From Phaeacidiphilus oryzae TH49 (GTDB lineage: Bacteria; Actinomycetota; Actinomycetes; Streptomycetales; Streptomycetaceae): 64,000 nt of DNA. Positions 5,615-58,913 of this stretch are shown piece by piece (position 1 is the first letter of the stretch; the number at the start of each line of letters is the position of its first letter). The notes under the pieces are model-generated. The model was not told where the DNA came from. It searched no databases and saw nothing but the letters and a program-made list of their open reading frames with translations. The position numbers were made by a program, and so were the translations under genes. Location of the stretch: the NCBI RefSeq assembly GCF_000744815.1, contig NZ_JQMQ01000004.1, positions 186,001 through 250,000 on the forward strand. The letters run 5' to 3'.

Positions 5615-5617
5615 GCC

Positions 5618-6855: not shown

Positions 6856-6860
6856 GAGTC

Positions 6861-7148: not shown

Positions 7149-7242
7149 CTTCGCCCCGGGGCGACCGCCATCCCGGCCAAGGAACACCCGGCCGCCCCGG
7201 GCCCTCGATCCCGCACCAAGACGACACCGAGAGGACCCCATC

Positions 7243-7428
7243 ATGCCCGCCACCACCCCGGCCCGTGTCTGCGGACACTGCGACGGTCACCCGACCGTGG
7301 CCATCAGCACCGGCCCCCGCCGCCCGGACGGCACCCTGCCCACCCTGCGGGTGACCTGCCCGGTCTGCCACGGCACCGGCACCACCACCCCGAACCGGTC
7401 GGCCGCGCTGGCCGGCGCCCGGAGGTGA
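7243..7428 (+). CDS. Small Cys-rich zinc-finger-like protein
   Basis: A 61-residue protein with two knuckles, CGHCDGH and CPVCHGTGT, about 30 residues apart. It is related in design to the product of 5152-5337 and again recalls a DnaJ zinc finger. A GAGAGGA box precedes the ATG. It is followed after a 6-nt gap by another tiny Cys-containing gene. Zinc binding is likely from the motif; its partner is unknown. Confidence 0.65.
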   Translation: MPATTPARVCGHCDGHPTVAISTGPRRPDGTLPTLRVTCPVCHGTGTTTPNRSAALAGARR

Positions 7429-7434
7429 CCCGCG

Positions 7435-7614
7435 GTGTCCCTCCTGAACTGGCGCGACCACTCCCACTGGAACGAGAGGGAAGCGGACTGCGTGCTGTGC
7501 GCGAACCCGACCCACCTGCGCTCCGACCGCGGACGGCCCGTCCACAAGGTCTGTGCCGAGCAGTGGACCGACGCCCACACCCCGAGTGACGAGAAGAAGG
7601 GAGAGCGCCGGTGA
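7435..7614 (+). CDS. Tiny Cys/His protein upstream of rep
   Basis: A 59-residue protein starting at GTG. It has ADCVLCANPTHLRSDRG followed by PVHKVCAEQW, giving CxxC, His and Cys ligands that could form a small zinc ribbon; the tail is charged (SDEKKGERR). GGAGG lies upstream. Its TGA overlaps the GTG of the rep gene (GTGA), and AAGGGAGAG inside its end serves as the rep ribosome site, so it is positioned to couple translation of the initiator. No family recognised. Confidence 0.65.
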   Translation: MSLLNWRDHSHWNEREADCVLCANPTHLRSDRGRPVHKVCAEQWTDAHTPSDEKKGERR

Positions 7615-8984
7615 CCCTGCCGGCCCTGGATGAGGCCACCCTCGCCGACCTGGTGAAGGTGGCCTCCGCCCCCAACCATGAACGCTGGCTCCGGCAGATC
7701 CGCGCAACCGGCGGATGCTCTGCCCCGATCCGGCTGCGCGGCTGGTCCAAGATCCTCGACCGCACCACACGGCAAGTTCTGCACAGCTACGCCACCGACA
7801 CCGAACCCGGCGGGGTACTCCGGCTGGCCTGCGGCAACCGCCGCGCCTCGCGCTGCCCCTCCTGCGCCGCCACCTACGCCGCGGACACCTACCACCTGGT
7901 GCGGGCCGGCCTGGTCGGCGACAACACCAAAGGCGTGCGAGCGGAAGTGCGGGATCACCCGCGGGTGTTCGCCACCTTCACCGCCCCCTCGTTCGGGCCA
8001 GTGCACAACCGTCCCGTTAGCGGGCGCTGCCGTTGCGGACGCCAGCACGCCGAAGACGCTGTTGAGTTGGGCACGCCGCTGGATCCGGACCGCTACGACT
8101 ACCCCGGGGCGGTGCTGTGGAATAACCACGCTGGCGACCTGTGGAACCGCTTCACGGTCCAACTCGGCCGCAGCATCGCTGAGCGCGTCGGCCTGCCCCG
8201 CTCCCGGCTGCGCGAGCACCTGCGGATCTCCTACGCCAAGGTCGCCGAGTTCCAGCGCCGCGGGGCCGTCCACTTCCACGCGATCATCCGACTAGACGGG
8301 CCAGAGGGCACCGACGATCCGCCGCCGGCCTGGGCCACCCCGGAGCTGCTGACCGAGGCGATCCTCACGGCCGCGCCCCGGGCGCACATCACCATCCCCG
8401 GCACCGCCGACCAGCCGGGCACGCTCGCGCGCTGGGGCCGGCAGCTCGACATCCGGCCCGTGCGGGCCTTCGGCGACGGCTCCGAGCTCACCGAACAGGC
8501 CGTGGCCTCCTACGTCGCCAAATACGCCACCAAGGCGGCCGAGACCACCGGCACCGTGGACCGCCCGATCGGCAACCGGGAAGCACTTGACCTGCTCAAG
8601 GTGCCCGCACACGCCCGCCGACTGATCGAAACCTGCCTCGACCTGGATGCCGCCTACCCCGGGCGCCGCCTGGGGGCCTGGGCCCACATGCTCGGCTTCC
8701 GCGGGCACTTCGCCTCCAAGTCTCGCCGCTACTCCGTCACCCTCACCTCGATCCGGGACGAACGAGCTGCCTACCGGGCCGCAGAGCAGCGGGCCGCACT
8801 CGGACTGCCCGACCCCGACGAGGACGACACCACGCTCACGCTCGCCCACTGGATCTACGCCGGACAGGGGCTCAGCCCGGGGGAGTCGGTGTTCGCCGCG
8901 ACGGTCGCGCGGGAGCGGGAGTTCGGACGAGAGATCAGAGCACAACTACGAGCCGACCAAGAGGAGGAGAAGGCATGGCTGTGA
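7611..8984 (+). CDS. repSA: RepSA-like replication initiator (HUH, rolling circle)
   Basis: A 457-residue protein of the pSAM2 RepSA type. Residues about 69-85 contain a Cys motif (ACGNRRASRCPSCAATYAAD), as in these initiators. The HUH motif is AVHFHAIIRLD at about residues 220-230, and the likely catalytic tyrosines are in VASYVAKYATK at about 297-307. Such proteins nick the element's double-strand origin and start rolling-circle replication after excision. It starts at GTG overlapping the previous gene and its 3-prime end overlaps the excisionase gene by 10 bp. The origin was not located; in this family it often lies near or inside the rep gene. Confidence 0.85.
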   Translation: MTLPALDEATLADLVKVASAPNHERWLRQIRATGGCSAPIRLRGWSKILDRTTRQVLHSYATDTEPGGVLRLACGNRRASRCPSCAATYAADTYHLVRAGLVGDNTKGVRAEVRDHPRVFATFTAPSFGPVHNRPVSGRCRCGRQHAEDAVELGTPLDPDRYDYPGAVLWNNHAGDLWNRFTVQLGRSIAERVGLPRSRLREHLRISYAKVAEFQRRGAVHFHAIIRLDGPEGTDDPPPAWATPELLTEAILTAAPRAHITIPGTADQPGTLARWGRQLDIRPVRAFGDGSELTEQAVASYVAKYATKAAETTGTVDRPIGNREALDLLKVPAHARRLIETCLDLDAAYPGRRLGAWAHMLGFRGHFASKSRRYSVTLTSIRDERAAYRAAEQRAALGLPDPDEDDTTLTLAHWIYAGQGLSPGESVFAATVAREREFGREIRAQLRADQEEEKAWL

Positions 8985-9193
8985 CCTCAGCGGAGCTTCC
9001 CACCCGCTACCTCACTGCGGAGGAGGTTGCCGAACTGCTCGGGGACATTCCTGTCCAGACGCTGTACCAGTGGCGTCGCAAGCGCACCGGACCGCCGGCC
9101 TTCCGAGTCGGCCGTCACCTACGGTACGACCCTGCCGACCTGCAACAGTGGATCGCCGGTCTCAAGGCCGCAGACACGGGCGAGGTGGCCTGA
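8975..9193 (+). CDS. xis: Excisionase (MerR-type HTH)
   Basis: A 72-residue DNA-binding protein with the HTH_17 pattern: YLTAEEVAELLGDIPVQTLY, then WRRKRTGPPAFRVGRHLRYD and DLQQWI. This is the standard AICE and phage excisionase, which bends DNA at the att site so that the integrase excises rather than integrates. A strong AGGAGGAG box inside the end of rep precedes the ATG. Its TGA overlaps the ATG of int, so the two are translationally coupled. Confidence 0.88.
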   Translation: MAVTSAELPTRYLTAEEVAELLGDIPVQTLYQWRRKRTGPPAFRVGRHLRYDPADLQQWIAGLKAADTGEVA

Positions 9194-10431
9194 TGGCCGG
9201 ACACGTCCAAGATCGCTGGTACAAGACCGAGACCGGGCCGGACGGCAAACCGCGGCGAGTGAAGACCGACCGCTACGGCACCGGCATGCGCTACCGCGCG
9301 CGCTATGTCGGGCCGGATGGGACGGAGAAGAGCCAGTCATTCCCGGACCGCAAGAAGCGGGAGGCGGACGCCTGGTTGGTGAAGATCGCGGCTGACATGG
9401 AAAGCGGTCGGTACGTCGATCCGCGGAGCGGGCGTGTGACGTTCCGTCAGTACGCGGAGCAGTGGATGGCGGCGCAGACCACGGATAAGAAGACGCAGGC
9501 CAACATCGCGTCGCAGATGCGGCGGCACGTGATCCCGTACCTCGGCCCGCGCTCCATGGCTGCCTTCACCCCGACCCACATCCGAGAGTGGCTGACCGAG
9601 TTGGAGAAGGTGCTGCCGGCTTCGTCCTACCGGCGGATCATCTTCGGGAACGTCTCGGGCATCTTCGCTGCCGCGATGGATGACGGGCTACGCACGTCGA
9701 ATCCGTGTCGGGCCAAGTCGGTGAAGGCGCCGAGTCCTGCGCCCGCTCGGGTGAAGCCGTGGACACCGGAGCGGACGTTCGCCATGCGGGCTGCCTTGCC
9801 GGAGCGGTACCGCGCGATGATCGATGTGGGCGGCGGTTGCGGTCTTCGACAAGGTGAGATCTTCGGCTTGCCGGTGGACGAAATCGCCTTAGACGCGGGG
9901 TGGTTGCACGTCGGGGTGCAGGTCAAGATGGTGCCCGGGGTCGGGCAGGTCTTCGCGCCGCCGAAGCGGGGCAAGGAGCGTGATGTACCGCTCTCGGACA
10001 GCGTGGCTGCGGCGCTCAAGCTGCACATGGCGGTGTTCCCGCCGGTGGATGTCACGCTTCCTTGGGAGCGTGCTGGTGGAGCGCTGATTACCAAGCGGCT
10101 GCTCTTCACGCGGTCGTGCGGTGATGCGCTCTGGCGCAGCGACTTCAACGGGTACGTATGGAAGCCGGCTCTGGCTGCGGCTGGCGTCATCCCGTCCCGG
10201 GAGAAGGGGAAGCGCTACGCCGCGGCGCGCGAGCATGGCATGCACGCGCTGCGGCACTTCTACGCTTCGGTGCTGCTCGATGCCGGCGAGAACGTCAAGG
10301 CGTTGAGTCAGTACCTCGGGCACAGTGACCCCGGGCTCACGCTCCGGGTGTACGCGCACCTGATGCCGAGTAGCGAGGGGCGGGCGCGCTCGGCGATGGA
10401 TCGGCTCTATCGGAAGGTCGCCGGAAGCTGA
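9193..10431 (+). CDS. int: Tyrosine site-specific integrase
   Basis: A 412-residue tyrosine recombinase. An N-terminal arm-type DNA-binding part (about 1-70) precedes a core-binding SAM-like domain (about 75-160, VTFRQYAEQWMA). The catalytic domain shows Arg in CGLRQGEIFGL (about 217), HALRH (about 350-354), LGHSDPG (about 375) and the nucleophile Tyr in LRVYAHLMP (about 386). It integrates and excises the element by strand exchange at att. It is the last gene of the operon. Two 11-bp direct repeats follow its stop and may be arm-binding sites. The att core and the target tRNA could not be recognised. Confidence 0.93.
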   Translation: MAGHVQDRWYKTETGPDGKPRRVKTDRYGTGMRYRARYVGPDGTEKSQSFPDRKKREADAWLVKIAADMESGRYVDPRSGRVTFRQYAEQWMAAQTTDKKTQANIASQMRRHVIPYLGPRSMAAFTPTHIREWLTELEKVLPASSYRRIIFGNVSGIFAAAMDDGLRTSNPCRAKSVKAPSPAPARVKPWTPERTFAMRAALPERYRAMIDVGGGCGLRQGEIFGLPVDEIALDAGWLHVGVQVKMVPGVGQVFAPPKRGKERDVPLSDSVAAALKLHMAVFPPVDVTLPWERAGGALITKRLLFTRSCGDALWRSDFNGYVWKPALAAAGVIPSREKGKRYAAAREHGMHALRHFYASVLLDAGENVKALSQYLGHSDPGLTLRVYAHLMPSSEGRARSAMDRLYRKVAGS

Positions 10432-33358: not shown

Positions 33359-33631
33359 ATGGACCTCCGACACCCCCGAGGGCGCTTCGGCCTGCTGGCC
33401 GGTGCCGCCGTGCTCGCGCCGGCCGCGCTGCTGGCCGGTGCCGGCCCTGCTGCCGCCGGCCCCGCCGCCCTCCGTGCCCTCCAGGCCCCGGCGGGACTGG
33501 CCGGGCACGCTCCCGCCAGGGTCACCGCGCAGTCCTGTATGGGGGGCGGCGGCTCGATCGGCCGGATCGACAGCGGGGTCTGGATCTGCCTGGGCGGCCG
33601 CTACGGCGGCAGCACGGTCAGCGATCTCTGA
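33359..33631 (+). CDS. Small secreted Cys-pair protein
   Basis: A 90-residue precursor. The N-terminal signal peptide has RHPRGR, a hydrophobic Ala/Leu core and a probable cleavage after PAAAG (about residue 34). The mature part is about 55 residues and ends with SCMGGGGSIGRIDSGVWICL and GGRYGGSTVSDL, in which two Cys could form one disulfide within a Gly-rich hairpin. No family is recognised. GAGGAG lies 8 nt before the ATG. Its last 14 bp overlap the convergent hydrolase gene. Confidence 0.7.
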   Translation: MDLRHPRGRFGLLAGAAVLAPAALLAGAGPAAAGPAALRALQAPAGLAGHAPARVTAQSCMGGGGSIGRIDSGVWICLGGRYGGSTVSDL

Positions 33632-34409
33632 TCGTCCCCGCCGTTCCGGAGGCTCCGGCCGGGCCGCTCCCCGCCTCCCGCCGGTCCGCCTCGTCGAGGA
33701 AGGCCAGCGCGGACTTCTTGAGGGTGTTGGCGGAGACCGCGTTGCGGTGGTCGCGGCCGGGGATGCGGAGCAGCCGGGCGGAGGCCAGGCCCTCCGCCAA
33801 CTCCTCGACGCCGTCCGCGAGCCCGTCCTCGGTGCCGGCCGCCAGCAGGACCGGGCAGTCCGGGGCGGGCTCGGCCCGGAACGGGTCGGCCGCGGTGCCC
33901 CGGACGCAGGCGTTCAGCGCCTCCACGTCGTGGGCGGGCGGGGCACCGAGGGCGGCGGATCGCGCGGACAGCCGGACCAGCTCGCGCAGCACCTCCTCGG
34001 CGCCGTCCTGGGCGCGCGGGCCGAAGCCGGCCAGCACCGCGGTGCGCACCCTGGCCGGGTGACGCACCGCCAACTCCCAGGCAAGCCGCGCCCCCAGGGA
34101 GTACCCGATGACGTCCACCCGCCCGCCGCCGGGGTCGCTCAGCGGGGGGAGGGTGGCCAGCAGGTCGGCGACCAGCAGCGGGATCCGGTAGCGCTCCGGG
34201 TCACGGGGGGCCGGGCCGGGGCCGCCTCCGTGGCCGGGCAGGTCGGGGGCGATCACCGTGCGGCCGGCCTTGTGGAGGGCGCGGATCCAGCCGGTGGCCT
34301 CGAAGGTGGCGCGGTGGTCCGCGCCGAGCCCGTGGAGCAGCAGCACCGGTGGCCGCTCGGCGGCCAGGACCGGTGCGCTGCCGGGGTGGAGAGCGGTGGG
34401 GGCGGGCAT
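33618..34409 (-). CDS. Alpha/beta hydrolase, AcoC-core-like, last gene of the bkd-type operon
   Basis: A 263-residue alpha/beta hydrolase. It shows PPVLLLHGLGADHRATF (oxyanion loop), the nucleophile elbow VIGYSLGARLAW at about 110-121, an acid in LLAAGTEDGLAD and the catalytic His in GRDHRNAVS. It follows the lipoyl-domain gene by 7 nt on the same strand. In acetoin dehydrogenases the E2 subunit AcoC is one chain made of a lipoyl domain plus such a hydrolase fold, so this gene and its neighbour look like a split AcoC. An unrelated esterase activity remains possible. Confidence 0.82.
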   Translation of the reverse strand: MPAPTALHPGSAPVLAAERPPVLLLHGLGADHRATFEATGWIRALHKAGRTVIAPDLPGHGGGPGPAPRDPERYRIPLLVADLLATLPPLSDPGGGRVDVIGYSLGARLAWELAVRHPARVRTAVLAGFGPRAQDGAEEVLRELVRLSARSAALGAPPAHDVEALNACVRGTAADPFRAEPAPDCPVLLAAGTEDGLADGVEELAEGLASARLLRIPGRDHRNAVSANTLKKSALAFLDEADRREAGSGPAGASGTAGTIRDR

Positions 34410-34416: not shown

Positions 34417-34833
34417 TCAGTCCTCCTTCGGCGGGGTGAGCCGGACCCGGCGGCGGGGGGCCCGGTCGGCGGGGACGGTGCCGACGATGCCGGGGGAGGG
34501 GGCCGGGGCGGCGTCCGCGGTCTGCCCCGTCTCGGGCGCCTGCGGCGTCCCGGCCGCATCGGCGGGGTCCGCCGCCGCGCCCTCCACGGCGAGGGTGATC
34601 AGCGGCCTGCCGACGTCCAGCCGCTCGCCGGGCTCGGCGTGCCGGGTGAGGACCCGCCCGGTCCACGGGGAGGGGATCTCCACCGCGGACTTGGCGGTCT
34701 CCACCTCCACCAGCGGGTCCCCGCGCTCGACCGTCTCGCCGTCCTCGACCAGCCAGTCCAGCACCTTGGCGTCGACCAGGCCCTCGCCGAGGTCGGGCAG
34801 CAGCAGGGTCCGTGATGCGTTCGGATCGGTCAT
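34417..34833 (-). CDS. Free-standing lipoyl-domain protein (truncated or split E2)
   Basis: A 138-residue protein. Residues 8-85 form a lipoyl domain with the modified Lys in VEVETAKSAVEI; ahead is LPDLGEGLVDAKVL, a normal E2 start. The remaining 50 residues are a Pro/Ala-rich linker and a basic end. The peripheral-subunit-binding domain and the catalytic acyltransferase domain of a normal E2 are absent; the gene stops there and the next gene is an alpha/beta hydrolase. It sits directly after E1-beta (6 nt). It should carry the swinging arm for the E1 reaction; who accepts the acyl group is open. Confidence 0.87.
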   Translation of the reverse strand: MTDPNASRTLLLPDLGEGLVDAKVLDWLVEDGETVERGDPLVEVETAKSAVEIPSPWTGRVLTRHAEPGERLDVGRPLITLAVEGAAADPADAAGTPQAPETGQTADAAPAPSPGIVGTVPADRAPRRRVRLTPPKED

Positions 34834-34839
34834 GGCGGG

Positions 34840-35883
34840 TCAGTTCTCCAGTACGTTCTGCACGGCGAGGAGGATGCGGTCGGCGTCGGGGAGGTAGTGC
34901 TCCTCCAGCGGGCCGGCCGGGGTGGGGACGTCGTAGCCGGTGACCCGGCGGACCGGCGAGCGGAGGTCGGCGAAGCAGCGCTCCATCAGCAGCGCGGAGA
35001 TCTCGGCGCCGAGCCCCGCCGTGCGCGGGGCCTCGTGCACCACCACCGCCCGGCGGGTCCGGCGCACCGCGGCGGCCAGGCCGTCCGCGTCGACCGGCTT
35101 CAGCCAGCGCAGGTCGACCACCTCCAGGTCCACGCCGTCCGCGGCGGCCAGTTCGGCCACCTGCAGGCAGCGGCGGACCATCGCGCCCCAGGTGACCAGG
35201 GTGGCGTGCCGGCCGGGGCGGGCGATCCGCAGCCGCGGCTCGTCCTCCGGCCCGTCCTCGGCGGCGCCGGCGGCGGAGTCGACCGGGCCGCGGTCCCAGT
35301 AGCGGGACTTGGGCTCCATGAAGACCACCGGGTCGGGGTCCCGCACCGCGGTCTTCAGCAGCCGATAGGCCTCGCCCGGGGTCGAGGGGGAGACCACCTT
35401 GAGGCCGGGGACGTGGGCGAAGACCGCCTCCAGCGACTCGCCGTGGTGCTCCGGGGCCTGGATGCCGCCGTAGCTGGGCACCCGCAGGGTCACCGGCATC
35501 GGCAGCGCGCCCCGGCTGCGGTAGCGCATCCGGGCCAGCTGGTTGACGATCTGGTCGATCGCCGGATAGGCGAAGCCGTCGAACTGCAGCTCGGGGATGG
35601 GCTTCCAGCCGGCCATGGCCAGGCCGACGGACATCCCGACGATCGCCGACTCGGCGAGCGGGGTGTCCATCACCCTGCGGCGGCCGAACCGCTGCTGCAG
35701 CCCGTCGGTGACCCGGAAGACGCCGCCGAGCCGGCCGACGTCCTCGCCGAGGACCAGCGTGCGCGGGTCCTCCTCCAGCAGTTCGGCGAGCGCGCGGTTG
35801 ATCGCCTGCTGCATCGTCAGGCCGGTGGTGGCGGGCGGCTCCCCGGGCAGTGCCCCGGGCTCGGTGGTCAGCAGGTCAGCCAT
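34840..35883 (-). CDS. bkdB: 2-oxoacid dehydrogenase E1 component, beta subunit
   Basis: A 347-residue transketolase-like E1-beta subunit. It has LTMQQAINRALAELL, VLGEDVGRLGGVFRVTDGLQ, the conserved PLAESAIVGMSVGLAMAGWK, and the C-terminal transketolase domain with VVHEAPRTAGLGAEI. It pairs with E1-alpha to decarboxylate a branched-chain 2-oxoacid or pyruvate/acetoin using ThDP. Start overlaps the E1-alpha end by 8 bp. The similarity fits the branched-chain type common in Streptomyces, but the lipoyl/hydrolase genes behind it point towards acetoin-like use. Symbol given by likely family only. Confidence 0.88.
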   Translation of the reverse strand: MADLLTTEPGALPGEPPATTGLTMQQAINRALAELLEEDPRTLVLGEDVGRLGGVFRVTDGLQQRFGRRRVMDTPLAESAIVGMSVGLAMAGWKPIPELQFDGFAYPAIDQIVNQLARMRYRSRGALPMPVTLRVPSYGGIQAPEHHGESLEAVFAHVPGLKVVSPSTPGEAYRLLKTAVRDPDPVVFMEPKSRYWDRGPVDSAAGAAEDGPEDEPRLRIARPGRHATLVTWGAMVRRCLQVAELAAADGVDLEVVDLRWLKPVDADGLAAAVRRTRRAVVVHEAPRTAGLGAEISALLMERCFADLRSPVRRVTGYDVPTPAGPLEEHYLPDADRILLAVQNVLEN

Positions 35884-36955
35884 TCTCCGCGACCTCCCAG
35901 TCGGCGCGGTACCCGTGCCACTCCCGCCACTCCTCCTGCTGCTCGCGCAGGGCCGCGGTGGGGTGCTCCAGTACCTGGGTGAACATCTCCTCGCCGGAGG
36001 GCTCCGGCAGCGCGGCGACCTCGTCGGCGTGCCGGCGGGCGCGCAGCGCGGCCGCCCGGTCGGTCCGGTCCAGCCATTCCGGGTCCGCCGCGCCCTCGGC
36101 CAGCAGCAGGCGGCGGGCCAGCTCCAGCGGGTCCCGCCCGGCCCACTCCGCCTCCTCCGCGGCCTCCTCGGGGGTGCCCCGGTAGCGGGTGGGGTCGTCG
36201 GAGGTGGAGTGCGGGGCGCGGCGGTAGGTGAGCGCCTCGACGACGGTCGGGCCGCCGCCCTCGCGGCCCCGCCGGACCGCCTCGGCGACGGCGGTGTGGA
36301 CGGCCAGCACGTCGTTGCCGTCCACCTGGACGCCGGGCATCCCGTAGCCGGCCGCGCGGGCCGCCACCGAGCCGCCGGCCACCTGCTCGCGCAGCGGGAC
36401 GGAGAGCGCCCAGCGGTTGTTCTGGCAGAAGAAGACCACCGGCAGCCGGAACACCCCGGCGAAGTTCATCGCCTCGTGGATGTCGCCCTGCGAGCTGGCG
36501 CCGTCCCCGAAGTAGGCCAGGGCGCAGCCGCCGGTGCCGTCCAGTTGCGCGCCCATCGCCCAGCCGACGGCGTGCGGCACCGGGCCGCCGACCACCGCGT
36601 TGAGCGGGGCGAGCCCGCACTCCCGGGGGTTCCACAGGCCGCCGTGCCACAGCGCCCGGTGGGAGGCGAGGTAGCCGGTGAGGTCGGCGTCCAGGGCGAC
36701 CGCGGCGCCCAGTTCCCGGTAGGTGGGGAAGGCGAAGTCCCGGCCCCGCTCCAGCGCGGCGGCGCTGCCGACCTGGGCCGCCTCCTGGCCGAGCACCTGG
36801 ACGTAGGCCGGGAAGACGCCCTGCCGCTGCAGGGCCAGCGACTCGCGGTCGATCGCGCGGGTGAGGGCCAGGTCGCGGTAGAGCCGCCGGAGCAGCCCGG
36901 GGTCCGGGGGCCCCGGCGGGGTCCCGCGCCCGGGCGAGGCAGAGTTGGTGTCCAC
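35876..36955 (-). CDS. bkdA: 2-oxoacid dehydrogenase E1 component, alpha subunit
   Basis: A 359-residue E1-alpha. The ThDP motif runs from GDGASSQGDIHEAMNFAGVF to CQNNRWALS (about 160-197). The phosphorylation-loop sequence YRRAPHSTSDDPTRYR is conserved. It forms a heterotetramer with the adjacent beta subunit and decarboxylates a 2-oxoacid. The start is GTG 36955, with a weak ribosome site, in a 118-bp divergent gap shared with an Lrp/AsnC gene. That arrangement is typical of actinomycete bkd loci and suggests control by an amino-acid-responsive regulator. Confidence 0.88.
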   Translation of the reverse strand: MDTNSASPGRGTPPGPPDPGLLRRLYRDLALTRAIDRESLALQRQGVFPAYVQVLGQEAAQVGSAAALERGRDFAFPTYRELGAAVALDADLTGYLASHRALWHGGLWNPRECGLAPLNAVVGGPVPHAVGWAMGAQLDGTGGCALAYFGDGASSQGDIHEAMNFAGVFRLPVVFFCQNNRWALSVPLREQVAGGSVAARAAGYGMPGVQVDGNDVLAVHTAVAEAVRRGREGGGPTVVEALTYRRAPHSTSDDPTRYRGTPEEAAEEAEWAGRDPLELARRLLLAEGAADPEWLDRTDRAAALRARRHADEVAALPEPSGEEMFTQVLEHPTAALREQQEEWREWHGYRADWEVAENG

Positions 36956-37073: not shown

Positions 37074-37640
37074 ATGCCCGACCGGACGAGTCGTCAACTG
37101 CCCGTGCAGCCGCGTCAGACGCCCCCGGCGGCGGGCGCCGGACCGGTGCTGCCGGCGGCTCCCGCGCCGCCCGCCCCGCCGCCGGTGCCCGAGCTGGACG
37201 AGACGGACCGCCGGATCCTGGCCGCGCTGGCCCGGGACGGCCGGGCGCCGATCAGCCGGGTCGCCACCGCCTGCAACATCGCCCGGGCGACGGCGTACGC
37301 GCGGATCGACCGGCTGATCGAACTCGGCGTGATCCGCGGCCACTCGGTGGTGATCGACCACGCCCGGGCCGGCCTCGGGCTCACCGTCATGGTGCTGGTC
37401 TCCGGGGCGCAGCCGGACTGGCAGGACACCCGGCGGATCATCAGCGCCTTCCCCGAGGTCGAGTACGCCTGGTTCGTGGCCGGCTCCGCGGACATCGTGG
37501 TGCTGCTGCGGCTGCGGGACACCCGGGAGTTGCGCGAGGTGATCCTCTCCCGGCTGCAGTCCATCCCCGGCGTCACCCGCACCGAGACCCTGCTGGTCAT
37601 CGACGAGATCGCGCACCGCCCCGCGGTGCTGCCGCGGTGA
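37074..37640 (+). CDS. Lrp/AsnC-family regulator
   Basis: A 188-residue regulator. A Pro-rich N-terminal extension of about 40 residues precedes the HTH (LDETDRRILAALARDGRAPI, RVATACNIARATAYARIDRL). The C-terminal RAM (ligand-sensing) domain includes FPEVEYAWFVAGSADIVVLL and VTRTETLLVID. GGGGAG precedes ATG 37074. It is divergent from the E1 operon and likely regulates it with an amino or oxo acid as effector. Its TGA overlaps the GTG of the GH114 gene. Confidence 0.88.
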   Translation: MPDRTSRQLPVQPRQTPPAAGAGPVLPAAPAPPAPPPVPELDETDRRILAALARDGRAPISRVATACNIARATAYARIDRLIELGVIRGHSVVIDHARAGLGLTVMVLVSGAQPDWQDTRRIISAFPEVEYAWFVAGSADIVVLLRLRDTRELREVILSRLQSIPGVTRTETLLVIDEIAHRPAVLPR

Positions 37641-38536: not shown

Positions 38537-39550
38537 TCAGCCGAGGCCGTCCGCGCCGACCCGCACCGCGGACTCGTCCAGGAGGCTGTTCGAGGTGGGC
38601 AGCGGTTCGCCGTCGAGGCCGAGCACCGGAGTCGCCTCCTTGTACCAGGACTCGATGACGGCGTTGCCCCAGAAGTCCCGCCGTCGGTCGTCGTGGACGC
38701 TCCAGCGGTAGGTCTCGTGGTCGGGGTCGCCGGTGTAGTAGTCCGAGGTGTACACCTCCACCCGGTGGCCGTCCGGGTCGCGGAGGTAGACGTAGAAGGC
38801 GTTGGAGACGCCGTGCCGGCCGGGCCCGCGCTCGATGTGCCGCTCCAGGTGCTGGGCGCCCAGGATGTCCGCGATCCGCAGCACCTGGTGGGACTCGTGG
38901 GTGGCCACCCCGAGATGGTGCAGCCGGGGGCCGGCGGCACCGGTGAAGGCGACGTCGTGGACGGTCTGCTTGCGGTACATCCAGGCCGCGTAGAGCTGGT
39001 GCTCGTCGCCCTCGATGGTCTCCGAGCAGCCGAAGCCGAGCGAGCGGTAGTGGGCGTAGGCGGCCGGCACGTCGGGGGTGCAGATGTTGAAGTGGTCAAG
39101 CCGGGCGATCTGCGCGCCCCGGTGGAGGTCGTAGCGCTGGATCAGTCGCTCGCCGCGCTCGATCCGGTGGAAGAACTCCACCGGGAAGCCCAGCGGGTCG
39201 ATCACCCGGACCGCGTCGCCGACCCCGGGGGCGCCCTGGCCGGCCGGCACCCGGCGGACCGGGCGGCGCAGCGCGGTGAAGAACTCCTCGGCCCGGTCGA
39301 CGTCCTCCGGGGTCCGCACCCGGTAGGCGAGATGGTGGAGGGCGGCGACCCGACCCTCGGTCAGCACCAGGTTGTGGTGGGTGAGTTCGTCGGTCCCGCG
39401 CAGGCAGAGGGCGCCGGCGCCCTCGTACTGGACGTGGAGGCCCAGGACGTCCACCCAGAACCAGCGGGCCCGGGCCAGGTCGGTCACCACCAGGTGCGCG
39501 TACGCCGAGCGCACCACGTCGGGGGCGGGCGGGAACGTCCGCTCGGTCAC
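38537..39550 (-). CDS. hpaD: 3,4-Dihydroxyphenylacetate 2,3-dioxygenase (extradiol, VOC type)
   Basis: A 337-residue type I extradiol dioxygenase with two vicinal-oxygen-chelate modules. The metal ligands can be seen: His153 in LDHFNICTPD, His212 in LHHLGVATHE and Glu265 in HRVEVYTSDYY, close to positions 155, 214 and 267 of Brevibacterium HPCD. YYTGDPDHETYRW also fits. It opens the ring of homoprotocatechuate with O2 to give 5-carboxymethyl-2-hydroxymuconate semialdehyde. The metal may be Fe or Mn. It starts at GTG overlapping the hpaE stop and is the last gene of the operon. Confidence 0.93.
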   Translation of the reverse strand: MTERTFPPAPDVVRSAYAHLVVTDLARARWFWVDVLGLHVQYEGAGALCLRGTDELTHHNLVLTEGRVAALHHLAYRVRTPEDVDRAEEFFTALRRPVRRVPAGQGAPGVGDAVRVIDPLGFPVEFFHRIERGERLIQRYDLHRGAQIARLDHFNICTPDVPAAYAHYRSLGFGCSETIEGDEHQLYAAWMYRKQTVHDVAFTGAAGPRLHHLGVATHESHQVLRIADILGAQHLERHIERGPGRHGVSNAFYVYLRDPDGHRVEVYTSDYYTGDPDHETYRWSVHDDRRRDFWGNAVIESWYKEATPVLGLDGEPLPTSNSLLDESAVRVGADGLG

Positions 39551-41052
39551 TTCGACTCGCCTCCCTCGCCGAACCTCGGGGTGTGCGGCGGCTCCAGGGC
39601 CACGTGGACGATCTTCGTCTCGGAGTAGAAGTCGATGCTGTGCGCCCCGCCCTCGCGCCCGAGGCCGGAGGCCTTCACCCCGCCGAAGGGGGTGCGGAGG
39701 TCGCGGACGTTGTGGGAGTTGATCCAGAGCATCCCGGACTCCACGGCGTGGGCGATCCGGTGGCCCCGGGCGAGATCGGAGGTCCAGACGTAGGCGGCCA
39801 GCCCGTACGGGGTGGCGTTGGCCAGCTCCACGGCCTCCTCCTCGGTGTCGAAGGGGGCCGCGCAGACCACCGGGCCGAAGATCTCCTCCTGGAAGATCCG
39901 GGCGTCCCGGGGGACGTCGGCGAAGACCGTCGGCTGGAGGTAGTTGCCCTCCGGGAGGTGCTCCGGGCGGCCGCCCCCGGCCAGCAGCCTCGCCTCCTTG
40001 CGGCCGAGTTCGAGGTAGCCCTGCACCCGGGCGTAGTGCTCGGGGTGGACCAGCGCGCCGACCTCGGTGGCGGGGTCCTGCGGCGGGCCGACCCGGACCC
40101 GGGACGCCCGCTCGGCCAGCCGCGCGGTGAACTCCTCGTACACCGGGCGCTCCACCAGCACCCGCGAACCGGCGGTGCAGCGCTCGCCGTTGAGCGAGAA
40201 GACGCCGAAGACCACCGAGTCCAGGGCCGCGTCCAGGTCGGCGTCGGCGAAGACGACGGCCGGGGACTTGCCGCCGAGCTCCATGGAGAGGGTCTTCAGA
40301 TGCTCGGCGGAGGAGCGGACGATGTGCCGGCCGGTCGCAGTGGAGCCGGTGAAGGAGATCCGCGGCACCTCCGGATGGTCGACCAGGGCCTGCCCGGCCT
40401 CCTCGCCGATCCCGTGGACGATGTTGACCGTGCCGTCCGGGAGCCCGGCCTCGGCGAAGATCTCCGGCCACAGGGAGGCGGAGAGCGGGGTCCACTCGGC
40501 CGGCTTGAGCACCAGCGTGCAGCCGGCCGCAAGCGCCGGGGCGAGCTTCCAGCTCTCCAGCATGAAGGGGGTGTTCCACGGGGTGATCAGCCCGGCGACG
40601 CCGGCCGGGCGGCGGACCGTGTAGCTGATCTGCGAGCTGCCCTGCCGGAAGGCCTCCCCGCCGAGGGCCACCAGCACGTCCGCGAAGTACCGGAAGTTCT
40701 CCGCCGCCCGCCGGGCCTGGCCGCGGGACTGGGTGACCGGAAGACCGGTGTCGAAGGTCTCGAAGGCGGACAGCCGCTCGTGGCGGGCCTCGACGGCGTC
40801 CGCGATCCGGTTCAGCGCGGTGGCCCTGGCCCGGTCGCCGAGCGCGGACCAGGCGGGGAAGGCCGCCTTGGCGGCCTGGACGGCCGCGTCCACATCGGCG
40901 GCCGAGCCGCGCGACGCGGTGGCGTACGGGGTGTTGCCGACCGGCTCGGACACCTCGAAGACGGCCCCGTCGAGGGAGGGCGCCGGGCGCCCGCCGATCC
41001 AGTGCGGGATGGTCTTCGGCAGGCCCTCCGGCCGTGTGCTCGTGTCGCTCAT
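39547..41052 (-). CDS. hpaE: 5-Carboxymethyl-2-hydroxymuconate semialdehyde dehydrogenase
   Basis: A 501-residue aldehyde dehydrogenase. NAD-binding helix FTGSTATGRHIV, catalytic Glu in LSMELGGKSP, nucleophile Cys in NGERCTAGSRVLVERP, and EEIFGPVVCA are all present. It oxidises the ring-cleavage semialdehyde with NAD. Gene order with hpaD supports the specific assignment over a generic ALDH. It follows the DapA-like gene by 62 nt and overlaps hpaD by 4 bp. Confidence 0.92.
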   Translation of the reverse strand: MSDTSTRPEGLPKTIPHWIGGRPAPSLDGAVFEVSEPVGNTPYATASRGSAADVDAAVQAAKAAFPAWSALGDRARATALNRIADAVEARHERLSAFETFDTGLPVTQSRGQARRAAENFRYFADVLVALGGEAFRQGSSQISYTVRRPAGVAGLITPWNTPFMLESWKLAPALAAGCTLVLKPAEWTPLSASLWPEIFAEAGLPDGTVNIVHGIGEEAGQALVDHPEVPRISFTGSTATGRHIVRSSAEHLKTLSMELGGKSPAVVFADADLDAALDSVVFGVFSLNGERCTAGSRVLVERPVYEEFTARLAERASRVRVGPPQDPATEVGALVHPEHYARVQGYLELGRKEARLLAGGGRPEHLPEGNYLQPTVFADVPRDARIFQEEIFGPVVCAAPFDTEEEAVELANATPYGLAAYVWTSDLARGHRIAHAVESGMLWINSHNVRDLRTPFGGVKASGLGREGGAHSIDFYSETKIVHVALEPPHTPRFGEGGESK

Positions 41053-41114: not shown

Positions 41115-42035
41115 TCAGATCTGTGCCGTCAGATCGCCGCCGGCGGCGAGCAGCCGGCGGACCTTCCCCTCGCCCTCCGAGGTCAGTCCGATCAGCGGCG
41201 GCCGTACGTGGTCCGAGGCGATCCGGCCCTGGCGGTGGAGCACCCATTTGGCCGGGGCCGGGTTGGTCTCCACGAAGAGGAGGTCGACCAGCGGGTGCAG
41301 CCGGTAGTGGAGATCGCGGGCCGTCTCGAGGTCGCCGGCCTGCCAGGCCTCGTACATCCGGGCCACCGCCGCCGGGGCCAGGTTGGCCACCGCCGAGACG
41401 AAGCCCGCCCCGCCGAGGGCCAGCAGCGGCAGGCACAGCAGCTCGATCCCGGACCAGACCAGCAGCTCGCGCCCGCAGGCGTGGAGGACGCGGGAGAAGT
41501 GCTCGAAGTCCTTGGTGGTCTCCTTGACGCCGACGAAGTTGTCGAAGTCCGAGAAGAGCCGCCGGACCGTCTCCGGCGCGATGTCCACCGCCGTCCGGGA
41601 CGGCACGTTGTACGCCACGATCGGCAGGTCGGGGAACTCCCGCGCCACCGTGGCGTACCAGCGGTACAGCGCCTCCTGGGTCGGGCGGGCGTAGTACGGC
41701 GTGATCACCAGCGCCGCGTCCGCGCCCGCCTCCCGGGCCGCCGCCGTGACCTCCAGGGTCTCGTCCAGCTTGTGGGAGCCGGTGCCGGGCAGGAAGGGCA
41801 CCCGGTCGCCGACGGCCTCGGCGGCCACCCGGATCGCGGCGATCCGCTCCGCTGCGCTCTGCGCGCTGGGCTCGCCGGTGGAGCCGCCCAGCGAGACGCC
41901 GTGCGAGCCGGACTCCAGCTGGAACCGGATCAGCCGGCGCAGCGACTCGTGGTCCACCGAGCCGTCCTCGGCGAACGGGGTGACGACGGGGGCGATCGAG
42001 CCGCGGATCGCGGACGGGTCACTGCGGAACTTCAC
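41115..42035 (-). CDS. hpaI: DapA-family aldolase, probable 2,4-dihydroxyhept-2-ene-1,7-dioate aldolase
   Basis: A 306-residue DHDPS-like TIM barrel. It has GGSTGEPSAQSAAERI, the Tyr in VAYNVPSRTAVDI and the Schiff-base Lys in FVGVKETTKDFEHF. A DapA-related aldolase (the HpaI-not-DapA group) is known to replace class II HpaI in some 4-hydroxyphenylacetate clusters, because the substrate differs from the DapA product only by an amino group. It would split the C7 acid to pyruvate and succinic semialdehyde. GTG 42035 overlaps the upstream fusion gene stop. A true DapA is unlikely here because of the catabolic context. Confidence 0.83.
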   Translation of the reverse strand: MKFRSDPSAIRGSIAPVVTPFAEDGSVDHESLRRLIRFQLESGSHGVSLGGSTGEPSAQSAAERIAAIRVAAEAVGDRVPFLPGTGSHKLDETLEVTAAAREAGADAALVITPYYARPTQEALYRWYATVAREFPDLPIVAYNVPSRTAVDIAPETVRRLFSDFDNFVGVKETTKDFEHFSRVLHACGRELLVWSGIELLCLPLLALGGAGFVSAVANLAPAAVARMYEAWQAGDLETARDLHYRLHPLVDLLFVETNPAPAKWVLHRQGRIASDHVRPPLIGLTSEGEGKVRRLLAAGGDLTAQI

Positions 42036-43468
42036 TGACCTTCTCCCTTGCACCAGTTCTCGTACCGGGCACGCCACTTGGGCCCGAGCGGGTACAGTCC
42101 GTCGACGCTCTCGCCGGCCGCCACCCGCTCGGTGATGAAGCGCTCCTGCCGCTCCTGCTCCCGGCAGTCCGCGATCAGCTCCTCGGCGAGCTCCGGCGGC
42201 ACCACCACCACCCCGTCGGCGTCCCCGACCAGCAGGTCGCCCGGCTGCACCAGGGCCCCGCCGCAGGCGATCGGCACCCCGGAGTCCCATGGGACGTGCC
42301 GCCGGCCCAGCACCGACGGGTGCGCCCCCGCGTGGTAGACCGGCAGGTCCAGGGCGGCCACCGGCTCGCTGTCCCGCAGCCCGCCGTCGGTGACCACGCC
42401 GGCCGCCCCGCGCTTGAGGGCGCGGAGCGCCAGGATGTCGCCCAGCGTCCCGGCCGAGGCGTCCCGGCGGGCGTCCATCACCAGCACCTGGCCCGGCCGG
42501 ATCTCCTCGATCGCCCGCTTCTGCGCGTTCATCCCGTTGCCGTGACGGGCGAACAGGTCCTCGCGCAGGGGGAGGTAGCGGAGGGTGTGGGCGGCCCCGA
42601 CGAGGCGGAGGTCCGGACGGGTCGGGCGGACGCCGTCCACGGACATGTGCGGCAGGCCGCGCCTGCGCAGCTGCGCGCTGAGGGTGGCCACCGCCACCGA
42701 GCGGAGTCCCGCCTCGATCTCGGGGGCGACGGCCGGGGCGGGGCGGTAGCCGGCGCCCCAGGCGGCCGCCCGCTCGGCCTCGTCGGCGCGCGGGCCCGCG
42801 CCCCAGCCGGCCAGCTCGCGCGCGTCCTCGACCACCGGGGAGCGCAGCCGGCCGGTCGTCGACTCCGCGCCGGCGGAGACCTCGACCTCCACCAGGTCGC
42901 CGGGCCGGGCCACCGAGGCGCCGGCCGGGGTGCCGGTGAGGACGACGTCCCCCGGCTCCAGGGTCATCAGCCGGGAGAGGTCCGCGACCAGCAGGCCGAA
43001 CGGGAAGAGGAGGCCGTCGGTGGTGTCGTCCTGCACCAGCTCGCCGTTGAGCCAGGTGCGCAGGCGCAGCCCGGCCGGGTCGACCTGCCGGGCGTCCAGC
43101 AGCCGCGGGCCGAGCGGGGTGAAGCCGTCGGCGCCCTTGGAGCGGAGGTTGGAGCCGCGGTCGGCGTAGCGGAGGTCGTAGACCCCGGCGTCGTTGGCCG
43201 CGGTGACGAAACCGACGTGCCGCCAGCCGTCCTCGGGCGTCACCCGGTGCGCCCGCTCGCCGATGACGAGCGCGATCTCGCCCTCGAAGCCGAGGAGTTC
43301 GCAGCCGTGCGGGCGGGGGATCGGGTCGCCGGAACCGGCCAGCGAGGAGGGCGGCTTGAGGAAGTAGGAGGGCTGGGCCGGGGTGCGGCCGCGCTCGGCG
43401 GCCCGGCCGCGGTAGTTGAGGTGCACCGCCACGATCTTCGACGGGGTGCGCCCCAGCGGATGCGTCAT
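42032..43468 (-). CDS. hpaG: FAH-RraA fusion protein (HpaG-like isomerase/decarboxylase)
   Basis: A 478-residue two-domain protein. Residues 1-240 are a fumarylacetoacetate hydrolase fold (IVAVHLNYRGRAAERG, FEGEIALVIG with metal Glu residues, DVVLTGTPAG). Residues 250-478 are an RraA-like fold (GAAHTLRYLP, GDILALRALKRGAAGVVTDG, GLRDSE, GDLLVGDADGVVVVP). E. coli HpaG has two FAH halves that do decarboxylation and isomerisation; here the second half is replaced by RraA, a fold that includes oxaloacetate decarboxylases/aldolases. It likely covers these steps, with the RraA half as decarboxylase. The start is 2 nt after hpaB. Confidence 0.85.
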   Translation of the reverse strand: MTHPLGRTPSKIVAVHLNYRGRAAERGRTPAQPSYFLKPPSSLAGSGDPIPRPHGCELLGFEGEIALVIGERAHRVTPEDGWRHVGFVTAANDAGVYDLRYADRGSNLRSKGADGFTPLGPRLLDARQVDPAGLRLRTWLNGELVQDDTTDGLLFPFGLLVADLSRLMTLEPGDVVLTGTPAGASVARPGDLVEVEVSAGAESTTGRLRSPVVEDARELAGWGAGPRADEAERAAAWGAGYRPAPAVAPEIEAGLRSVAVATLSAQLRRRGLPHMSVDGVRPTRPDLRLVGAAHTLRYLPLREDLFARHGNGMNAQKRAIEEIRPGQVLVMDARRDASAGTLGDILALRALKRGAAGVVTDGGLRDSEPVAALDLPVYHAGAHPSVLGRRHVPWDSGVPIACGGALVQPGDLLVGDADGVVVVPPELAEELIADCREQERQERFITERVAAGESVDGLYPLGPKWRARYENWCKGEGQ

Positions 43469-43470: not shown

Positions 43471-44922
43471 TCAGTCACGCTCCAGGAAGGCCCGCACCCG
43501 GGCCTTGTAGGGCTCGCGGTCGTAGGACTTGACGTAGGCGCCGGCCATCCGCACCGGGTCGCCGAAGAAGTAGTACTCGTACAGCGCCTGGCGGGAGGAG
43601 AAGGCCGAGATGCAGGTGTCCCAGACCAGCCGGAAGAGCCGCAGCCGCTCGGGGCCGGTGAGGGTCGCCGACTGCAGGTAGTCCTCGATGTCCTGGGCCG
43701 CCGGGCCGTGGACGTCGGCCTCGGTGGGGGTGGCCATCAGCCCGGAGGCGCCGAACTTGCGGAGGATCTCCGGGAAGCGCTGGTAGAGCCTGGGGTAGAG
43801 GTTGCGGGCCGCGTTCAGCGGCGCCCAGGCGGGGGTGAGGACGCCGTACTCGTTGACCTCGGCGTCCGCCTCGGCGGCCCGGAGGAAGGCGCGCAGGGTC
43901 TCCAGGGTGGAGATGATCTCGGCGACGTCCTGCTGGACGTGCTGGAACTGCTCGATCCCGATCGCCTCGGTGAGCAGCGAGACCAGGCCGAGGACGTACT
44001 CGGTCTTGGCGGTGGTGCGGGTGACCACCTGGTGGGTCATGTGCACCACGGCCGAGGTCTCGCTGTAGAAGCCGTTGCACAGCTCCGGCTCGCCCAGCAC
44101 GAAGCAGCGCTCGTACGGGACATGGACGTCGTCGAAGACCACCACCGCGTCCGGCTCCTCGAAGCGGGAGGAGAGCGGGTGGTCGAAGGACGGGCGGTTG
44201 TAGTCGAGCGGCTCGCGGGCCAGGTAGCGCAGCCCGGGGGCGTCGCTGGGGAGGGCGAAGGCGAAGGAGTACGGCTTGTCCTCGGGGGTGCCGCGGAGCA
44301 CCGTCGAGGGGAAGACCAGCAGCTCGTCGGCGAAGGGCGCGATGGTGGCCAGCATCCGCGCCCCGCGCACCACCACCCCGTTGTCGTCCTCCCGCACCAC
44401 CCGGGCGGTGAGCTTGCCGCCGGCCTGCTGGGTGCCTGACAGCGCCCGGTTGACCTGCGGCGGGATCAGGGTGTGGGTGGTGAGGAGGTCCTCCTCGCGG
44501 ACCTTCTCGTAGTACCGGCGGATGTTCTCGCCGAAGGCAGGGTTGGCCTGGCCGAACCAGTCGGCGGCCGAACTCAGCGCCATCAGCGAGGAGTTGAGGT
44601 AGTCCCCGGTGCGCCCGAGCATCCCCATGCTGTGGTCGGCCCAGACCTTGAACGCCTGGCGGCGCTTGCGGAGGTCCTCCGGGGTGGCGGGGGCCAGGAA
44701 CGAGGTGCCGACGCGCTCACCGCTGGAGGGGGAGGGGTAGGTCAGCACGTCGCGGTGCTCGGGCGCGTGCTGCAGGTCGTACAGCTCGGCGTAGCTGCGG
44801 ACGACGTTGCGGTACGCCGGGTGCTCGGCGATGCCGCCGGTCAGCCTCTCGCCCTGCACCTCCACGACGGTGCGGGTGTCGGCGAGCCGGTCCAGGAACT
44901 GCTTGCCGGTACGTGCGGCCAT
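43471..44922 (-). CDS. hpaB: 4-Hydroxyphenylacetate 3-monooxygenase, oxygenase component
   Basis: A 483-residue flavin-dependent hydroxylase of the HpaB/PheA1 family. N-terminal RTGKQFLDRLADTRTVVEVQ, the segment YPSPSSGERVGTSFLAPATP, FKVWADHSMGMLGRTGDYLN and YEYYFFGDPVRMAGAY match the family. It uses reduced FAD delivered by HpaC to hydroxylate 4-hydroxyphenylacetate to homoprotocatechuate. Gene order with the downstream pathway supports this over chlorophenol hydroxylase. It lies 88 nt after hpaC on the same strand. Confidence 0.92.
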   Translation of the reverse strand: MAARTGKQFLDRLADTRTVVEVQGERLTGGIAEHPAYRNVVRSYAELYDLQHAPEHRDVLTYPSPSSGERVGTSFLAPATPEDLRKRRQAFKVWADHSMGMLGRTGDYLNSSLMALSSAADWFGQANPAFGENIRRYYEKVREEDLLTTHTLIPPQVNRALSGTQQAGGKLTARVVREDDNGVVVRGARMLATIAPFADELLVFPSTVLRGTPEDKPYSFAFALPSDAPGLRYLAREPLDYNRPSFDHPLSSRFEEPDAVVVFDDVHVPYERCFVLGEPELCNGFYSETSAVVHMTHQVVTRTTAKTEYVLGLVSLLTEAIGIEQFQHVQQDVAEIISTLETLRAFLRAAEADAEVNEYGVLTPAWAPLNAARNLYPRLYQRFPEILRKFGASGLMATPTEADVHGPAAQDIEDYLQSATLTGPERLRLFRLVWDTCISAFSSRQALYEYYFFGDPVRMAGAYVKSYDREPYKARVRAFLERD

Positions 44923-45010: not shown

Positions 45011-45544
45011 TCAGATGAGGTACTCCATGCCCTCGGCCGCCTCGGCGATGCCGCCGAACCGGCTCCAGGCGTAGGTGAGGGCGTCCCCGTCCCGGTGGCC
45101 CAGGGCCGTCACCAGGCCCAGGACCAGGGTGTGGTCCCCGCCGTCGTACGTCCGCCAGGGGTCGCACTCCACCCAGGCCAGCGGGGTCGCCAGGCGCGGC
45201 ACCCGGGCCCGCGGCGCCCACTCCGGTTCGCCGGGGACCGGCGCGCCGGCGAAGCGCCGCGCGACGGCCTCCTGCTCGGCGCCCAGCACATTGACGCAGA
45301 ACGGGATGCCGGAACCGAGCGGACCGTGGCAGCGCGCCCGGCGCGCCACGCTCACCAGGACCAGTGGCGGCTCGGCCGAGACCGAGGTGAAGGAGTTCAT
45401 GGTCGCCCCGCGCGGGCCCTCGGGGGTGTCGTAGGTGACCACGGTGACCCCGGTCGCGAACCGGGAGAGGCAGGCGCGGAGGGCGCCGGGGGTGGGCGGC
45501 GGCTGGGAGGCGTGGATCTCCATCGACGGCAGGGGGTCTGGCAT
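45011..45544 (-). CDS. hpaC: Flavin reductase component of HPA monooxygenase
   Basis: A 177-residue flavin reductase-like protein. It has RFATGVTVVTYDTPEGPRG, TMNSFTSVSAEPPLVLVSV (FMN/FAD site) and FCVNVLGAEQEAVARRFAG. It reduces FAD with NADH and passes it to HpaB. ATG 45544 was chosen for an AGGTGA box; ATG 45523 is also possible. First gene of the operon, 46 bp from the MarR-type operator. Confidence 0.9.
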   Translation of the reverse strand: MPDPLPSMEIHASQPPPTPGALRACLSRFATGVTVVTYDTPEGPRGATMNSFTSVSAEPPLVLVSVARRARCHGPLGSGIPFCVNVLGAEQEAVARRFAGAPVPGEPEWAPRARVPRLATPLAWVECDPWRTYDGGDHTLVLGLVTALGHRDGDALTYAWSRFGGIAEAAEGMEYLI

Positions 45545-45582
45545 CGCGGCGGTCACCTGTTTCGGAAGGTGCGGGCCGGGAA

Positions 45583-57503: not shown

Positions 57504-58913
<1,410 letters not shown>

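Follow-up and report, generated by a model that had tools for sequence, protein, structure and literature searches.

Textbook 2-oxoacid dehydrogenases are organised around an E2 core, and the energy of the acyl bond is conserved as acyl-CoA. Among the described systems closest to the locus considered here, AcoC (PRK14875/NF011457 type), the E2 of acetoin dehydrogenase, replaces the 2-oxoacid_dh acyltransferase with a lipoyl domain and an alpha/beta hydrolase and is encoded beside E1-alpha and E1-beta; BkdABC, the branched-chain 2-oxoacid dehydrogenase (BKD) of actinomycetes, has an E2 with subunit-binding and catalytic domains; and the H-protein of glycine cleavage is, by analogy, a free lipoyl shuttle without an E2 core. 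Here we describe an operon for E1-alpha, E1-beta, a stand-alone lipoyl protein and an alpha/beta hydrolase, found in a 64,000-nucleotide stretch of the Phaeacidiphilus oryzae TH49 genome (contig NZ_JQMQ01000004.1, positions 186,001 to 250,000; hereafter the window). We propose, with a probability of about 0.48, that E1, the free lipoyl shuttle, the hydrolase and a shared lipoamide dehydrogenase (E3) would turn an aromatic 2-oxoacid, most likely 4-hydroxyphenylpyruvate, into a free arylacetate.

A conserved operon without an E2 core

Four minus-strand open frames run in series from 36955 to 33618 in the order E1-alpha, E1-beta, lipoyl protein and hydrolase, with an 8-base overlap between the two E1 genes and gaps of 6 and 7 bases on either side of the lipoyl gene. 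The thiamine-dependent E1-alpha and E1-beta families characteristic of BKD and other 2-oxoacid dehydrogenase complexes are all present (PF00676, PF02779 and PF02780), the GDG...NN motif of E1-alpha appears intact by eye, and E1-alpha scores 350.1 bits against TIGR03181, under the cut-off of 411.35. The lipoyl protein carries the lipoyl-lysine motif ETAKSA and has no match to an E2 catalytic or E3-binding (subunit-binding) family in Pfam at E <=0.001, and the Pfam search likewise found the operon to be without the PF00198 acyltransferase core. Frames and Pfam matches thus confirm the earlier note on this DNA, which had described E1-alpha and E1-beta followed by a 138-residue lipoyl-only protein and a hydrolase without an acyltransferase domain; the interval it gave, 34417-36955, takes in the first three genes, while the hydrolase falls just outside (34409-33618).

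This anatomy is not confined to the window. We compared 80 named loci, the best of at least 573 confirmed relatives in a one-genome-per-species collection, of which 77 have the complete set with order and strand preserved and the remaining three (L074, L106, L131) end at contig ends before the hydrolase. The comparison across actinomycete genomes that the note had called for therefore shows the lipoyl gene and the hydrolase accompanying this E1 in every one of the 77 uncut loci. No lipoyl-hydrolase fusion occurs among these 77, and the two are separate genes in all 95 complete rows (window included; seven loci counted twice). Overlaps of 8 bases are typical, between E1-alpha and E1-beta in 36/77 and between E1-beta and the lipoyl gene in 54/77. 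All 79 lipoyl genes found encode the lipoyl-lysine motif and 78 encode the tail motif GIVGTVP...RRVRL, the sole miss being the truncated gene of L106; complete lipoyl proteins are 105-119 residues long in the named loci and 138 in the window. An E2 catalytic domain was found in a single named locus (L085), as part of a separate, divergent branched-chain operon, so that a full-length E2 of the same operon type nearby, which would have undermined the note's proposal, was not encountered. The E1-lipoyl-hydrolase operon is real and firmly conserved, and its E2-less, hydrolase-bearing anatomy is more general than could be seen from one stretch of DNA.

The named loci belong to Nocardiopsis and relatives, Amycolatopsis, Saccharopolyspora, Saccharomonospora, Arthrobacter and relatives, Cryobacterium, Leifsonia, Rhodoglobus, Subtercola and Acrocarpospora, with one Glycomyces-named record and one metagenome-assembled genome labelled Acidobacteria. 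In the hydrolase tree the operon on the contig binned as Acidobacteria (L111) falls with Sinomonas, indicating either a mis-binned contig or transfer. An E1-alpha profile of 14 sequences (the window and 13 from other genomes of a class sample) separated 22 of 394 class genomes at 555.8-661.7 bits from all others at <=370.2 bits, the scores of genomes that contributed to the profile being raised thereby. E1-beta shares 61-75% identity with its counterparts in related operons along most of the protein, and in an E1-beta tree a modestly supported branch (67/72) divides the 33 operon sequences from the BKD type. Within the 150 sampled genomes of its own family, P. oryzae included, E1-alpha was found at E <=1e-90 in P. 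oryzae alone and the hydrolase in five; since the other four hydrolases (L011-L014) stand without an E1 or lipoyl match in the stretches fetched around them, the operon looks isolated within its own family. A search of plasmid DNA returned partial E1 matches only. A gene for an Lrp-type regulator accompanies 59 of the 80 named loci by clustering, or 62 when tblastn hits are added, and in Nocardiopsis-type loci it is divergent to the operon and 57-61% identical.

Comparison with the BKD systems of the same genome suggests where the carrier may have come from. Five genes elsewhere in P. oryzae encode E2 catalytic domains; two of these belong to branched-chain-type E1-alpha/E1-beta/E2 operons, to whose E1 proteins the E1-alpha and E1-beta of the window are 45-56% identical. 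With the N-terminal parts of these two E2s the lipoyl protein shares 48% and 42% identity (30% with a third E2), and it resembles them in its lipoyl domain and in a VG...RRRV linker; it stops just past the first linker, which reads VGYG...RRR in the branched-chain-type E2s. These similarities point to a truncated branched-chain-type E2 that would have lost its subunit-binding and catalytic domains and kept the linker, and the retained tail GIVGTVP...RRVRL is possibly a docking element. The window system differs from BkdABC in lacking those two E2 domains, in the added hydrolase and in the separate score class of its E1. It also differs from the glycine cleavage H-protein, which belongs to another family: the lipoyl protein scores 20 bits against PF01597 (GCV_H), under the cut-off of 22.2.

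The resemblance to AcoC lies in the parts list. In NF011457 (AcoC, 372 positions) the lipoyl protein matches positions 4-101 and the hydrolase positions 131-228, a layout that bears out the note's description of AcoC as a lipoyl domain fused to a hydrolase. The scores, 62.6 and 49.6 bits respectively, are far under the cut-off of 307 bits. The note's term for the system, a split AcoC, holds for the parts and for their division between two genes, never one polypeptide, but is not supported as a statement of their origin, because the lipoyl protein is branched-chain-E2-like and the hydrolase has its best NCBIfam match in PcaDC (60.3 bits), ahead of AcoC and of MenH (45.4 bits). The system is further distinguished from AcoC by its BKD-like E1 and by its genomic neighbours.

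Linkage to 4-hydroxyphenylacetate degradation

A cluster of hpa genes, a connection absent from the earlier note, adjoins the operon in the window: the end of hpaD lies 1.6 kb from E1-alpha on the same strand, with the Lrp/AsnC regulator and one plus-strand gene between them (Table 1). With linkage taken as >=47% identity over >=100 residues within 9 kb of the operon, a threshold of our own, and locus families assigned by record title, hpa genes occur near the operon in 25 of the 80 named loci (a raw count without a background rate), namely in 23 of 35 Micrococcaceae loci, in Acrocarpospora (L118) and in Rhodoglobus (L128), in addition to the window.

The order of the genes varies. In one arrangement hpaB lies on the opposite strand 1.2-4.5 kb downstream of the hydrolase and is followed by hpaC; in another hpaG, a GntR regulator, hpaE and hpaD follow on the operon strand. 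The distance from hpaG to the hydrolase is about 0.2 kb in L125, L142 and L149, 0.7 kb in L147 and 1.6-3.1 kb in five other loci, in which hpaD is not always inside the examined stretch; in L125 the hpaG-hpaE-hpaD series runs on into hpaH and hpaI. In the Acrocarpospora locus (L118) several genes, among them those for a P450, a ferredoxin reductase and a LysR protein, separate the operon from hpaD. An amino-acid permease gene is present in 28 named loci, all of them Micrococcaceae, and in L082 a HisC-type (PRK03321-type) aminotransferase gene directly follows the hydrolase.

Conversely, 12 stretches of 18-19 kb with hpaD, taken from 12 genomes (L180-L191, a non-random choice), were all without an E1 match. 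Six of these regions (L180-L185) had been picked for close hydrolase and HpaD hits; their hydrolases, from family f36 genomes, were not counted as additional linkage, since in L180-L184 these hydrolase relatives adjoin a nicotinamidase-like gene (by sequence reading, no family search), which they overlap in L181-L183. The hpa clusters of these stretches carry either a dihydrodipicolinate synthase (DHDPS)-family gene (L180, L188, L189, L191) or hpaH and hpaI (L181-L187), never both, and L190 shows neither. The cluster in the window has the DHDPS-family gene, and the DHDPS-family protein may replace HpaH and HpaI in a variant lower pathway.

Table 1. Positions in the window of the operon, its presumptive regulator, the adjoining hpa cluster and a lipoamide dehydrogenase gene
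Feature	Position	Strand	Details
E1-alpha, thiamine-dependent 2-oxoacid dehydrogenase, BKD/pyruvate dehydrogenase (PDH) 'x' type	35876..36955	-	359 aa; PF00676 248 bits; own score class
E1-beta	34840..35883	-	347 aa; PF02779 + PF02780
Stand-alone lipoyl carrier protein	34417..34833	-	138 aa; PF00364 56.6 bits, residues 10-81; tail GIVGTVP...RRVRL
Alpha/beta hydrolase, proposed acyl-lipoyl thioesterase	33618..34409	-	263 aa; PF00561 72.1 bits; triad S104-D195-H221
Divergent Lrp/AsnC-type regulator, probable operon regulator	37185..37640	+	PF01037, PF13412; start codon approximate
hpaD, homoprotocatechuate 2,3-dioxygenase	38537..39550	-	TIGR02295 374.1 bits, cut-off 321.4
hpaE, 5-carboxymethyl-2-hydroxymuconate semialdehyde (CHMS) dehydrogenase	39547..41052	-	TIGR02299 653.6 bits, cut-off 638.35
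DHDPS-family gene in hpa cluster	41115..42035	-	PF00701 286.4 bits
hpaG-like fumarylacetoacetate (FAA) hydrolase fused to RraA-like domain	42032..43468	-	PF01557 + PF03737
hpaB, 4-hydroxyphenylacetate 3-monooxygenase	43471..44922	-	PF11794 + PF03241
hpaC-like flavin reductase	45011..45556	-	PF01613
lpdA, lipoamide dehydrogenase, unlinked candidate E3	57504..58913	+	TIGR01350 539.8 bits, cut-off 408.8

The lone lpdA to which the note had pointed as a possible source of E3 is indeed present, about 20 kb from the operon. Another E3 candidate by position (no family search) is a 462-residue gene at a distant locus (L018), where it adjoins an E2 gene with two lipoyl domains. Further away in the window, the genes at 3466-10431 resemble by eye an integrated element, and the open reading frame at 9259-10431 is recombinase-like.

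Proposed mechanism and competing explanations

HpaB hydroxylates free 4-hydroxyphenylacetate. Its dependence on the free acid, combined with the hpa linkage, leads us to infer that the operon carries out the oxidative decarboxylation of 4-hydroxyphenylpyruvate and that the hydrolase frees the acid; an ordinary complex would yield 4-hydroxyphenylacetyl-CoA and require a thioesterase, whereas a hydrolase in place of the acyltransferase would deliver the free acid directly. E1-alpha and E1-beta would decarboxylate the aromatic 2-oxoacid, with 4-hydroxyphenylpyruvate the most likely substrate and phenylpyruvate perhaps another, and would reductively acylate the free lipoyl protein, which would shuttle in the manner of the H-protein. 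The hydrolase serine would then accept the arylacetyl group from the dihydrolipoyl thioester and hand it to water, releasing 4-hydroxyphenylacetate (or phenylacetate), and the carrier would be reoxidised by a lipoamide dehydrogenase common to other complexes, with NAD+ as the expected acceptor. In the window the product would enter the neighbouring hpaBC-hpaD-hpaE-hpaG cluster, and the Lrp-type regulator may sense an amino acid. Release by the hydrolase rather than transfer to CoA, as the note had suggested, is a reasonable proposal that the hpa linkage strengthens, although the AcoC-like alternative discussed below stays alive. On the sequence evidence, release as free arylacetate is the best explanation, and the lineages with hpa linkage probably use an aromatic substrate.

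In the hydrolase, Ser104, Asp195 and His221 (numbering of the 263-residue protein) are conserved without exception across the 45 operon sequences aligned, and an AlphaFold2 model (mean predicted local distance difference test score, pLDDT, 85.9) has the alpha/beta fold, so that triad and fold together mark a predicted serine hydrolase, a class assignment that by itself does not prove thioesterase activity. (For the NCBIfam, Pfam and own-family searches the query started one codon early, at 34412, and had one extra residue.) In fold comparisons the model matched the enol-lactonase 2xua (Z 23.7, 224 residues, root-mean-square deviation 3.0), with many esterases nearly equal; 5v7o (NosK), which we take to be an acyl-transferring relative, followed at Z 22.1, and the thioesterase domain of curacin, a polyketide, stood lower in the Foldseek list. 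No lipoyl thioesterase was named among the fold-comparison rows, which excludes nothing, and because the matches span esterases, NosK and a thioesterase domain, fold cannot separate a thioesterase from an acyltransferase.

Genome content offers a second line of comparison. HpaD and PaaA were queried in 41 of the 80 named operon genomes. HpaD was found in 30 of these, a count confounded by family (Nocardiopsis-type 0/5, Pseudonocardiaceae 7/12, Micrococcaceae 17/18, Microbacteriaceae 5/5, Acrocarpospora 1/1). PaaA is present in 22/22 sampled and 40/41 named operon genomes, as against 148/335 in the class sample (17 of them operon genomes), and the sole named operon genome without it, Acrocarpospora, has hpaD near the operon. 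In family f17, PaaA occurs in 20/20 operon genomes and over cut-off in 5/20 operon-free ones, while 4-hydroxyphenylpyruvate dioxygenase (HPPD) shows the opposite pattern (2/20 versus 18/20). The phenylacetate pathway is thus a suggestive alternative outlet for the Nocardiopsis type.

A number of observations weigh against the proposed arylacetate-forming role, beginning with the linkage itself. Besides the linkage count being a raw one, the 23 hpa-linked Micrococcaceae loci are mutually related and hence are not independent events, 12 of the 35 Micrococcaceae loci have no hpa gene in the examined stretch, and the linkage in L127 consists of an hpaC-like flavin reductase alone. At genome level, HpaD over cut-off is not significantly enriched with the operon in the class sample (4/22 operon genomes versus 28/372 others, Fisher p 0.09), and it is common in operon-free genomes of families f36 and f3, so that the count of 30/41 says little there. 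The genome of P. oryzae encodes HPPD, another tyrosine route, as well as PaaA. On the side of the hydrolase, enzymes that hydrolyse esters and enol-lactones head the fold matches, and other close relatives pair with the nicotinamidase-like gene described above. In the hydrolase tree two hydrolases that stand alone (L065, L066) fall within the clade of Arthrobacter operons; they adjoin nadA-like and nudix-like genes as Arthrobacter operons do, and have no E1-alpha, E1-beta or lipoyl match within their 14 kb; having apparently been kept after E1 and carrier were lost, they argue against a strictly obligate role. The note had named a hydrolase working apart from the complex as a point against its proposal, and with these two lone copies this may be the case. 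There is also a candidate enzyme of a different kind: a 4-hydroxyphenylpyruvate oxidase of Arthrobacter (EC 1.2.3.13), reportedly described by Blakley in 1977 as an O2-using oxidase. It shares with the reaction proposed here the net conversion of 4-hydroxyphenylpyruvate to 4-hydroxyphenylacetate and CO2, and differs in being an oxidase, whereas the window system is expected to be NAD+-linked via lipoamide dehydrogenase. Lastly, the PaaA and HPPD contrasts follow clades, so that one event each could explain them; four of five operon-free f3 genomes also carry PaaA; and Arthrobacter sp. Rue61a fails to grow on phenylacetate despite its paa genes (PMC3534580). We therefore regard these contrasts as suggestive only.

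The same evidence bears on other explanations. The hydrolase could instead be an AcoC-like acyltransferase whose serine passes the acyl group to CoA, making a compact E2-core-free complex that yields arylacetyl-CoA (or branched acyl-CoA). We consider this doubtful, given that both proteins fall so far short of the AcoC cut-off and that HpaB, the entry enzyme of the linked pathway, uses the free acid; the match of the two proteins to the two halves of NF011457 nevertheless speaks for it, as does NosK among the fold matches. Were phenylpyruvate the substrate, direct formation of phenylacetyl-CoA, on which PaaA acts, would save ATP, and the near-universal presence of PaaA in operon genomes keeps this thriftier route alive. 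It is unlikely that E1 and the lipoyl protein draw on the ordinary branched-chain E2 cores of the genome to make branched acyl-CoA, the hydrolase being an accessory or editing thioesterase or a passenger. The two three-gene branched-chain-type operons with full E2, the BKD-like E1, the tendency of Lrp regulators to control branched-chain genes and the hydrolases retained alone in L065 and L066 would fit such a partnership, but a lipoyl protein without a subunit-binding domain, an E1-alpha in a score class of its own and a hydrolase kept in every uncut locus would not.

It is more unlikely still that the substrate is some other oxoacid, such as indolepyruvate or a branched-chain oxoacid, and that the hpa linkage is a capture specific to Micrococcaceae, since differently arranged hpa linkage is seen in four lineages (window, Micrococcaceae, Acrocarpospora and Rhodoglobus) and since the aminotransferase gene of L082 comes right after the hydrolase. 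Such a substrate would agree with the absence of HpaD from 18 of 20 Nocardiopsis-type operon genomes, which also counts against our own proposal, and with the genes beside Nocardiopsis-type loci that read, by sequence, like nucleoside uptake and salvage. The Leifsonia sp. CL147 locus (L093, 12762-15330), in which a succinate-semialdehyde dehydrogenase (SSADH)-like aldehyde dehydrogenase gene and a thiolase gene come after the operon and an Lrp-like gene, may also mean another substrate. Returning to the formation of free arylacetate, a broader formulation would be that the operon represents a class of CoA-free, lipoyl-dependent oxoacid dehydrogenases, with E1, a free carrier bearing a dedicated docking tail and a hydrolase standing in for the whole E2 core, and that this class is the genetically orphan step from 4-hydroxyphenylpyruvate or phenylpyruvate to arylacetate in several actinomycete families; we advance this tentatively, at somewhat less than even odds.

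Implications for tyrosine catabolism

Published accounts of Arthrobacter bear on this step. Strain Rue61a grows on tyrosine and 4-hydroxyphenylacetate, and its closest sequenced relative is A. aurescens TC-1 (PMC3534580). The latter (L113) carries the operon and has HpaD, which lies outside the 9 kb examined. A. arilaitensis uses tyrosine, and the genes for 4-hydroxyphenylpyruvate oxidase and 4-hydroxyphenylacetate monooxygenase are given as 'not located' in its genome paper (PMC2991359). A review mentions that an industrial group cloned a 4-hydroxyphenylpyruvate oxidase from Arthrobacter globiformis into plants (PMC9338888), so that the orphan status of the step is uncertain. In the open-licence PMC literature, taken at the level of titles and abstract starts, searches on a CoA-independent or stand-alone-lipoyl oxoacid dehydrogenase, a phenylpyruvate dehydrogenase with a lipoyl protein or thioesterase, AcoC, and a link between hpa genes and E1 yielded no title recognisable as the present system.

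The operon defines a conserved family in which a free lipoyl carrier and a hydrolase are found instead of an E2 core. Oxidation by such a system would be CoA-free, and its product would be fit for a pathway that starts from the free acid. It is a concrete candidate for a step of Gram-positive tyrosine catabolism known since the 1970s, the gene for which was unlocated in the A. arilaitensis genome paper (PMC2991359), and there is a real chance that a 2-oxoacid dehydrogenase variant with an AcoC-like parts list is the missing step of the tyrosine pathway.

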